NCBI GenBank assembly: GCA_030523645.1
Contig: JAUNIB010000003.1
Location: forward strand, 124,001-188,000
DNA from: Selenomonadaceae bacterium
GTDB lineage: Bacteria > Bacillota > Negativicutes > Selenomonadales > Selenomonadaceae
Reading direction: 5' to 3'
Length of the DNA stretch: 64,000 nucleotides
Each line of letters starts with the position of its first letter. Positions within the stretch are counted from its first letter, which is position 1. Below, one piece after another: positions 17,126-56,404 of the stretch. Under the pieces are notes generated by a model that did no database searches, was not told where the DNA came from, and saw nothing but the letters and a program-made list of their open reading frames with translations. Position numbers and translations under genes: made by a program.

Positions 17126-17273
17126 CACCCCTCCGACCTCGCTATGCTCAACCACCTCCTACAAACATGCTAAGTTCATCCTTCGCTACGCTCGGATATC
17201 ACTAAGCAGTTTGCATGGCTCGCACTAAATTCGCAAGCTCATTAAGTGCTCATGCACACCTCAATGGGAGGCT
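17126..17273. repeat. Right half of a family A repeat split by family E
   Basis: CACCCCTCCGACCTCGC… runs to CCACCTCC, is interrupted by the 99-base element E1, and resumes with CCTCAATGGGAGG. Joining the flanks restores the terminal arm seen uninterrupted in A1. Confidence 0.8.
17160..17258 (-). mobile_element. Family E two-arm hairpin element, copy E1
   Basis: 99 bases, minus-strand orientation (begins TGTGCATGAGCAC, ends CATGTTTGTA). It is inserted in the terminal stem of a family A repeat; removing it exactly restores the stem, with no clear target duplication. It folds into two arms, each with a T.T mismatch followed by a GA-rich internal loop. No coding capacity. Confidence 0.75.
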
Positions 17274-24164: not shown

Positions 24165-24380
24165 GACTCCCCTCCAGGTGTGCATGAGCACTTAATGAGC
24201 CAAAGGCGAATTTAGTGCGAGCCAGGCAAACTGCTTAGTGATATCCGAGCAAAGCGACGGATGAACTTAGCATGTTTGTAGGAGTTGGCGCCGAAGGCGA
24301 CTGAGGGGTGACAGTAAAACACATCCGTCTATTTACCCCTCCGCTTCGCTGCGCTCAGCACCTCCCCTATAGGGGAGGCT
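24165..24380. repeat. Family A repeat, copy A6, split by family E
   Basis: The left arm CTCCCCTCCAGG is interrupted by E2 and resumes as GGAGTTGGCGCCGAAGGCG. Joining the flanks restores a CTCCCCTCCAGGGGAG hairpin. The rest is a normal family A copy ending in CTCCCCTATAGGGGAG. Confidence 0.8.
24179..24280 (+). mobile_element. Family E two-arm hairpin element, copy E2
   Basis: 102 bases in plus orientation, about 90% like E1 and E3. It has a three-base longer first loop (GCC AAA GGC instead of GC TT GC). It is inserted after CAGG in the stem of A6, with no clear target duplication. Confidence 0.75.
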
Positions 24381-28833: not shown

Positions 28834-29029
28834 CCTCATCCGTTAGCCTTCGGCTGCCACCTTCCCCAGAGGGGAAGGTCTGTACCCTCCCCTTTGGGTG
28901 TGCATGAGCACTTAATGAGCTTGCGAATTTAGTGCGAGCCATGCAAACTGCTTAGTGACATCCGAGCATAGCGATGGATGAACTTAGCATGTTTGTAGAG
29001 GGGGGACCGGCGAAGCCGGTGGGTGAGGT
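28834..29029. repeat. Family B repeat, copy B1, split by family E
   Basis: Bounded by CCTCATCCG and GGTGAGG. It contains CACCTTCCCCAGAGGGGAAGG, then CCCTCCCCTTTGGG, then E3, then GAGGGGGGACCGGCGAAGCCGG. Without E3 it would match the 99-base B3. Confidence 0.8.
28899..28997 (+). mobile_element. Family E two-arm hairpin element, copy E3
   Basis: 99 bases, plus orientation, near-identical to E1. It is inserted after TGGG in the CCCTCCCC/GGGGAGGG stem of repeat B1. It shows that the E target is the G-rich stem and not family A itself. Confidence 0.75.
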
Positions 29030-41885: not shown

Positions 41886-42026
41886 CCGCCGTAACAGCAC
41901 ATATAAAGAAACCGTTTATCAACATCAGTGCTTGACGATTAACAAGCTAGCCAGCGCAGTTAGAGTCTAGCACTGCTATGTTGATAACCGAGTGCAAACG
42001 GGTTTCTGTTATGTGTTGTTAGGCGG
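41886..42026 (+). repeat. Family D long structured palindrome, copy D1
   Basis: 141 bases folding into one long interrupted hairpin. Paired segments: 41886-41890/42022-42026, 41892-41903/42010-42021 (one mismatch), 41907-41913/42001-42007, 41916-41925/41978-41987 (perfect), 41926-41936/41965-41975 (T.T mismatch), 41939-41943/41959-41963. The apical loop AAGCTAGCCAGCGCA is shared with D2. Confidence 0.75.
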
Positions 42027-43424: not shown

Positions 43425-43448
43425 TTCATTTCACAAAAACAGGCTGTG

Positions 43449-43690
43449 AATAAAAGTCTGACGAAAACACGCTCTCGCACTGCGACTCCCTAAGCTCTGC
43501 CGTCGTTATACTCGGCAATCGCTAAGGTCGCATGCATGACACTCACTAAATTCATCCATCGCTTCACTCGGATTCATTAAGTGAGTTAGTCTTGGTTATT
43601 TGCGTAGCGGTACTAGGCTCCTGCTTCGTATGCTTACTTGCAGATTGCCAAGTACCGACGCAAATAAACGGTTTTCTTACAGATATTATT
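43449..43690 (-). repeat. Family D structured palindrome, copy D4 (three arms)
   Basis: 242 bases, minus orientation. The outer stem is 43449-43460/43680-43690, next to shared ends GACGAAAAC and GTTTTCTTAC. Three internal arms: 43481-43532, 43542-43585 and 43598-43665. Each has a single like-base mismatch about three pairs before a GA-containing internal loop. Arm 2 resembles family E. Confidence 0.7.
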
Positions 43691-43712
43691 CCCAGCATCT
43701 ACATCAAGGAAG

Positions 43713-43750
43713 GGACTGTGAAAAAATGAGTACTCATTTTTTCACAGTCC
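43713..43750 (-). terminator. Terminator after thrB (CTGTGAA family)
   Basis: An 18-base perfect stem (GGACTGTGAAAAAATGAG) with loop TA, seven bases past the thrB stop. Confidence 0.75.
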
Positions 43751-43756
43751 CCAATT

Positions 43757-50476: not shown

Positions 50477-50635
50477 AATAAGATTTGACGAAACCTCATC
50501 CGACCTCGCTACGCTCGGCCACCTTCCCCAGAGGGGAAGGTTATAACCCTCTCCTTTGGAGAGGGGGAACCGGCGAAGCCGGTGGGTGAGGTTAATGTAC
50601 CGGCGTGGATAAACGGTTTTCTTACAAATCCTATT
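50477..50635 (-). repeat. Family D element D6 with a family B repeat nested in it
   Basis: The outer stem AATAAGATTTG (50477-50487) pairs with CAAATCCTATT (50625-50635, one mismatch). Inside are the family D ends TTGACGAAA and GATAAACGGTTTTCTTAC. The middle is occupied by the complete family B element B3. Confidence 0.6.
50494..50592. repeat. Complete family B repeat, copy B3
   Basis: 99 bases with ends CCTCATCC and GGTGAGG. Half 1: CTCGCTACGCTCGG, then CCTTCCCCAGAGGGGAAGG. Half 2: CCCTCTCCTTTGGAGAGGG, then CCGGCGAAGCCGG. The reference copy for B1. Confidence 0.85.
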
Positions 50636-50696
50636 CTATGAACACTCACATTAAGGTACGACTGCTTAGCCGTCCTTTATTTACGGTCACAACGCA

Positions 50697-50826
50697 GTGA
50701 ATACTGCTGTCTTCCGAGACAATTAATGAACCTCGGTACTTAGCGAGTGCGTTTCGTCAGATACGCAGAGCTTAGTACCGTTAGGTTCATTGCTTAGCGC
50801 AAGCGTGTCGAGGATGACAGCAGTAT
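50697..50826 (+). repeat. Family D structured palindrome, copy D3
   Basis: The outer stem ATACTGCTGTC (50701-50711) pairs perfectly with 50816-50826. Inner stems: 50725-50732/50784-50791 (perfect), 50734-50744/50770-50780 (T.T mismatch), 50748-50752/50763-50767. It ends eight bases before the deoB stop. Confidence 0.7.
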
Positions 50827-53492: not shown

Positions 53493-53632
53493 AGGCTGCC
53501 ATATTGCCCGTAAGAAAACCGTTAATCAACACCGGTACTTAGCGACTGACAAGCTAGCCAGCGCAGTCAGAGCTTAGTACCGCTGTGTTGATTACCGCGC
53601 GAAAGCAGGTTTTCGTCGGGCAATAAGGCAGT
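53493..53632 (+). repeat. Family D long structured palindrome, copy D2
   Basis: 140 bases in one interrupted hairpin. The outer stem includes TATTGCCCG/CGGGCAATA; then 53523-53532/53585-53594 (perfect), 53533-53543/53572-53582 (T.T mismatch), 53546-53550/53566-53570. Loop AAGCTAGCCAGCGCA as in D1. It lies between hemB and hemL. Confidence 0.75.
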
Positions 53633-55006: not shown

Positions 55007-55059
55007 CTACCTCAATGTAAAACTAGCTGCAATCAGTCAAAGGATTTAGGAGGACAATC

Positions 55060-56296: not shown

Positions 56297-56309
56297 TAAT
56301 GTGATTGCT

Positions 56310-56397
56310 GCTGAATACAGTCTGTAAGAAAAAAGTTTATCTGCTCCAGCGCTTAAGTCGCAGTGCGAAAGCGTGTTTTCGTCAGACATTATTCGGC
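56310..56397 (+). repeat. Family D remnant, copy D5
   Basis: 88 bases. Outer stem GCTGAATACAGTCTG/CAGACATTATTCGGC, then the family D ends TAAGAAAA and GTTTTCGTC. The central arms are deleted. Its right part (GCAGTGCGAAAGCGTG) matches D4. Confidence 0.6.
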
Positions 56398-56404
56398 CGC
56401 TCAG

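Follow-up and report, generated by a model that had tools for sequence, protein, structure and literature searches.

A folded dispersed repeat with a conserved non-canonical arm in the chromosomes of Selenomonadaceae, Lachnospiraceae and related Firmicutes

The window, a stretch of 64,000 nucleotides from contig JAUNIB010000003.1 of a Selenomonadaceae bacterium (source genome of 2.3 Mb, genus Schwartzia, G000 below), carries several copies of a folded repeat. The most elaborate copy lies at 43440-43709, where a homoserine-kinase-like gene and a tRNA-nucleotidyltransferase-like gene are the predicted neighbours as read from open reading frames. The features of this copy and of its relatives in the window are as follows.

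43440-43709, minus (motif strand): whole element, a three-arm copy with box, P1, P2, junction, three arms and GNRA hairpin (BLAST, model matches, folds)
43712-43751, no strand: perfect palindrome of 40 bp, resembling a terminator, 5' of the box
43699-43709, minus: 5' box CCTTGATGTAG (consensus WCCTTAATGTAA; motif search around Schwartzia copies)
43680-43699, minus: P1 5' arm GATGCTGGGAATAATATCTG (folds, alignment)
43440-43460, minus: P1 3' arm CAGACTTTTATTCACAGCCTG (folds, alignment)
43613-43652, minus: arm A, the arm of one-arm copies, CTT-GGC-AAT...GA-GCC-TAG (scan and conserved columns)
43546-43581, minus: arm B, an extra arm, CTT-AAT-GA-ATCC...GGAT-GA-ATT-TAG, without the N
43490-43526, minus: arm C, an extra arm, CTT-AGC-GAT-TGCCG...CGGCA-GA-GCT-TAG
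43471-43478, minus: GNRA hairpin GC-GAGA-GC (conserved purine at the third tetraloop position)
41893-42020, plus: one-arm copy, D1 of the initial annotation (covariance model, 134.2 bits); arm with GAC/GTC triplets at 41931-41970, plus (motif scan)
50701-50826, plus: one-arm copy, D3 (covariance model, 79.1 bits); arm at 50739-50775, plus (motif scan)
53500-53627, plus: one-arm copy, D2 (model match; ortholog in the sister species G001 at L080:3922-4049); arm at 53538-53577, plus (motif scan)
56303-56400, plus: headless copy with box, P1 and GNRA hairpin kept and P3 and arm deleted (genome comparison)
24191-24270, plus: E-type two-arm module, arms 24191-24215 and 24234-24270
28911-28987, plus: E-type two-arm module, arms 28911-28932 and 28951-28987
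17170-17246, minus: E-type two-arm module, arms 17225-17246 and 17170-17206

The initial annotation had proposed one recurrent arm that combines a U.U mismatch, three variable pairs and a GAN/GA loop. In our scan for CTT-N3-GA...GA-N3'-TAG with complementary triplets required, 11 such arms were found in the window, against a mean of 0.37 and at most 3 in any of 100 dinucleotide shuffles of the same window; the pattern is not equally frequent in shuffled sequence. This count excludes the AAT-loop arm at 43613-43652, which comes on top. Three arms lie within 43449-43690 (D4), all on the minus strand, and their deviations are just as had been described, that is, AAT in place of GAN in arm A and a missing N in arm B. 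The E-type arm pair occurs three times in the window. Over 119 genomic copies the U.U columns are kept in 116/119 and 117/119, the GA columns in 113/119 and 113/119, and the facing GA in 118/119 and 117/119, and the N of GAN is C or T in 106 of the copies. The recurring arm is conserved well above chance, and its proposed role as a recognition element appears plausible.

The arm is the tip of a dispersed, non-coding, intergenic folded repeat, whose stem is much longer than the initial annotation had noticed. Its architecture and pairing statistics were obtained from an alignment of 31 one-arm copies. On one strand the element folds into P1 (a long outer stem), the UAA/GU internal loop, P2, a junction that bears the GNRA hairpin, P3 interrupted by a two-base bulge, and the arms, of which there are one to three; in the one-arm architecture the junction is three-way. 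Outward along the arm follow U.U, three pairs, GAN/GA, four pairs, RA/GMA, three pairs and the loop. Standard pairs are formed in 96.5% of the pair cells and changes on both sides are seen in 34 of the 47 pairs, with 233 double-change cells against 71 expected by shuffling and at most 34 in slid controls. P1 differs in sequence between copies and reaches a length of about 50 bp, and within one genome the P1s are related and distinguished by compensatory changes. The third position of the GNRA tetraloop is A or G in 119/119 copies.

The three-arm copies show that the element is modular. In the copy at 43440-43709 the two extra arms make up a module of 113 nt that sits between P3 and the GNRA hairpin. 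Two other copies of the source genome carry this module at the same place, and at L011 the module is located inside the arm instead. The two-arm module (CTCACTTAATGAATAC...) is also found inside another repeat framework of the CCCCTCAGTC...GACTGAGGGG type (L027:500-680, L030:430-600 and L022:700-870). At 50479-50660 of the window (minus) and at L046:330-500, the head is replaced by the repeat pair ACCTCACCCACCGGC...GACGGATGAGGT with P1 and P2 retained, and heads seem to be exchanged between repeat families.

With regard to the ends, 69 of the 114 Schwartzia copies have the sharply defined box WCCTTAATGTAA at a distance of 18 or 19 nt on the 5' side of the model start, and no conserved counterpart was found on the 3' side among the 114. 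In the box at 43699-43709, as in others, the letters ATGTAA place a stop codon immediately after a start codon. A strong hairpin stands upstream of 69% of the Schwartzia copies, compared with 33% downstream and 11% of shuffles. This hairpin may be part of the unit, because it tends to appear or vanish together with the element between G000 and G001. Schwartzia copies often adjoin terminators and sit between convergent genes. Moreover, all four orientation classes of neighbouring genes occur with no consistent orientation of the element to them, and a fixed cis-regulatory role was rejected for this reason.

A sequence search with the region found about 45 related places in G000, and a covariance model gave 73 matches in this genome (63 at E below 1e-14, the rest weak or truncated) and 57 in its Schwartzia sister species G001. 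Rumen and gut bacteria carry about 60-70 copies per genome. Elements of this arm and architecture, built with other stem sequences, occur in Anaerovibrio (G021) and in G032, and further hosts are many Lachnospiraceae, Butyrivibrio, Oribacterium, Blautia, Mogibacterium and other Clostridia, mostly of rumen or gut, several of them being metagenome bins that may be misnamed. Of the 189 genomes of the family, 44 contain the strict arm pattern, with a maximum of 63 arms in one genome (G069) and a range from 0 to 63 across Anaerovibrio genomes, and a reversed control pattern was near zero in the family genomes carrying arms; the distribution is patchy over genera, with most of the 189 genomes lacking the arm. 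In a sample of 398 genomes of the phylum, 23 gave a match, several being single chance-like matches, but a few other families in it have many arms. Neither the exact pattern nor BLAST found a match in viral contigs, phages or plasmids. No Rfam 15 covariance model matched at gathering, permissive matches being at chance level (E 0.16 or worse), and no named family for the element was found in the literature searched. We regard it as a previously unlisted family of folded, dispersed repeats, probably mobile, which is spread through the chromosomes of Selenomonadaceae, Lachnospiraceae and related Firmicutes.

Presence and orientation of the copies differ between sister species, and some orthologs are inverted in place. 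Alignment of G000 with G001 (one genome per species was compared here and below) revealed shared sites, sites occupied in one species only and sites with opposite orientation; at the headless copy 56303-56400, for example, the sister species has a full copy in the opposite orientation. The G001 copy at L080:2389-2514 is missing from G000 at the corresponding window position 55026-55034, a state that suits deletion of a hairpin, because the box and the 5' P1 arm are still there. Other presence/absence sites are L072 versus L147 and L081 versus L148; most of these sites are also explicable as deletions, and no clean pre-insertion site with a target-site duplication was seen at the compared G000/G001 sites. 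The idea that the P1 arms are copied from the target upon insertion was set aside in favour of simpler deletion, because the P1s within a genome are related and differ compensatorily. In-place inversion was observed at three orthologous Anaerovibrio sites, where the flanking genes are collinear and the element is reversed. At the 3' end of tyrS, two species have the element on the strand of the gene and two others have it on the opposite strand (L270 and L271 versus L178 and L191), and P1 pairs in this set change on both sides between species (columns 9-22 against the facing 3' columns, read by eye). Other inverted pairs are L121 versus L159, which are 97% identical in reverse with collinear flanks, and L118 versus L267. 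Several of the orthologous Anaerovibrio copies are 97-99% identical, against 83-88% for their largely coding flanks, a pattern more in line with a function in place than with pure selfishness. Orthologous Schwartzia copies drift more and some of their pairs are broken.

The explanation that we favour, and consider reasonably probable, is a mobile, dispersed structured repeat of the REPIN/MITE-like foldback kind, with a template-switched P1 and a selected head. The P1 arms are inverted repeats, and template switching during replication would copy one arm onto the other, so that P1 would stay paired while its sequence drifts, and would also invert the spacer. According to two papers, template switching makes the arms of inverted repeats alike and turns their spacers around (PMC8604942), and it maintains RNA hairpins (PMC8794818). 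In-place inversion is the signature of such switching between P1 arms, and covariation in P1 therefore need not mean selection. On the other hand, the sequence of the head suggests that it is probably under selection on one folded strand, because template switching would erase mismatches, yet the inner-loop A.G, the bulge U, U.U and GA/GA are kept at 95-100% in the 119 copies. Wobble pairs are biased to the motif strand when cells are counted (121 G.U versus 48 A.C, p 2e-8), though these cells come from related copies and are non-independent, and distinct pair types (39 versus 33) show no significant difference. A purine at the third tetraloop place is the GNRA rule of RNA, and hairpins of DNA allow more freedom. 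The head would be kept by selection on the motif strand in its folded form if a trans-acting factor recognises the arm core, either as RNA, which the GNRA pattern favours, or as single-stranded DNA. Such recognition may let copies spread, with some of them long retained in place. Against this explanation, no cognate enzyme and no autonomous copy were found, and no target-site duplication was defined. Among clustered ORFs beside 157 arms, only housekeeping and transport genes recurred, with neither an autonomous-partner gene nor a mobile-element gene, and no transposase partner was found among these ORFs or the Y1/RAYT proteins. A group II intron-driven retroelement was not supported, no RVT_1 (reverse transcriptase) match being present in G000 or G001.

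Part of the same evidence would suit a structured RNA or DNA site that serves the host and is kept in place by selection, its copies stemming from old duplication; candidates are a 3'-end stabiliser, an aid to bidirectional termination or a nucleoid/gyrase-type binding site. The conservation of the Anaerovibrio orthologs relative to their flanks, the compensatory P1 changes at one orthologous site and the frequent position of Schwartzia copies beside terminators and between convergent genes all speak for such a role. Nevertheless, we think it rather unlikely, because each of the four gene-orientation classes is represented and copies are seen flipped in place, sister species differ in presence and position, orthologous Schwartzia copies have broken pairs, and most genomes of the family do without the element. 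Less probable still is that pairing is a mere by-product, in which template switching keeps any inverted repeat paired and no structure is selected. Spacer inversion in place together with homogenised, fast-drifting P1 arms is the exact signature of this process (PMC8604942, PMC8794818), and for P1 this reading stands. For the head, however, it predicts that U.U, GA/GA, RA/GMA and the two-base bulge should vanish, yet they are largely kept at 95-100%; moreover, other genera have this arm on different stems, and G.U exceeds A.C.

Mobilisation of the element as a REPIN by a RAYT (REP-associated tyrosine transposase) was also considered, since G000 and G001 each encode a RAYT-like protein and the layout of 5' tag and hairpin resembles REP. 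The G000 RAYT gene, however, lies beside a 149-bp tandem array of GTAG-type REPs of its own, its protein is absent from G001 and from 187 of the 189 family genomes at E 1e-5, and four arm-carrying genomes (G021, G063, G066 and G026) have no Y1 match even at E 1; we therefore rejected Y1/RAYT as the mobiliser and consider this origin very improbable. The RAYT-like gene itself (L298:534-1758, about 292600-293830 of G000 contig C9) is preceded by a 5-copy array of GTAGGGG...-type REP pairs, and its true start is probably later, because its apparent N-terminus reads through one array unit. The suggestion of the initial annotation that the arm may be a kink-turn, for which the tandem G.A adjoining a U.U pair would speak and which an L7Ae-type protein would bind, is hardly credible. 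A kink-turn has tandem sheared-type G.A/A.G, and GA facing GA would suit this (113/119 and 117-118/119 copies), but a kink-turn needs about 3 unpaired nucleotides 5' of GA. Here about 97% of copies pair these three nucleotides, with changes that compensate each other (97-100% per pair, with double changes, in the 31-copy alignment), and the single extra base is 3' of GA. Because three covarying base pairs precede it, GAN/GA is a 3x2 internal loop and not a kink-turn.

Among known systems, the element fits the category of mobile/repeat sequence candidates (MRSC) in copy number and gene orientation: MRSC-65-2 has dozens of copies per genome, strong covariation and inconsistent orientation to genes, and whether it acts as RNA or DNA was left open (PMC11109978). 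MRSC-65-2 was described as a single long stem with UYCCGG repeats, whereas the present element is far more elaborate, with a multi-way junction, a GNRA hairpin, the U.U/GAN-GA arm, optional extra arms and documented in-place inversion, and unlike MRSCs (PMC11109978) it is not often near transposase, integrase, nuclease or helicase genes. REP/REPIN sequences with RAYT (PMC8049555) are likewise short intergenic hairpins with a 5' tag beside the hairpin and diverging copy populations, but their conserved 5' tetranucleotide is of GTAG/GGAG type, absent from the box WCCTTAATGTAA, and the present element is longer, with a complex head and no shared RAYT. MITEs and foldback elements are also non-autonomous and intergenic with inverted-repeat ends (review PMC10969869), and the P1 arms match their terminal inverted repeats, though with a sequence that differs copy to copy; no target duplication or cognate transposase was found, in searches that covered Y1/RAYT proteins and the ORFs beside arms. 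Template-switch hairpins share arm homogenisation and spacer inversion, but they are described as a mutation process at individual loci (PMC8794818, PMC8604942), and ours is a repeated family whose non-canonical head is conserved. The BOX elements of pneumococcus are similar as modular structured intergenic repeats with a variable number of inner modules, and differ in the arm core; we know of no sequence relation between them and the present element. Taken by its own features, the element is a dispersed structured repeat whose non-canonical head is conserved and which undergoes inversion in place.

This repeat is abundant in rumen and gut Firmicutes, yet it has no Rfam entry or account in the literature searched. 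Its orthologous hairpins in both orientations form a natural series in bacteria, by which it is testable whether paired stems are maintained by template switching rather than by selection alone, and they warn that stem covariation need not mean selection on RNA. The conserved non-canonical arm is a concrete bait for a recognising factor. As a bolder and rather doubtful proposal, the element may belong to a class of mobile nucleic acids of its own, new among such classes, where selection would act on the folded single strand as its unit, a dedicated putative protein or enzyme would bind the U.U/GAN-GA arm and move or copy the hairpin, and replication template switching would continually rewrite the outer stem and flip the unit. 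If so, each copy would be a private stem around a shared head.

Finally, some copies from other hosts differ in detail or setting. At five Lachnospiraceae-type loci (L161, L173, L199, L245 and L264) the element adjoins a MATE-family-like efflux gene, and these loci are possibly orthologous sites. In the Butyrivibrio-like L170 and L214, an extra hairpin (AATAAGAATGTCC...GACATTCGTTTGTT) is inserted at the same junction where Schwartzia carries the extra arms.
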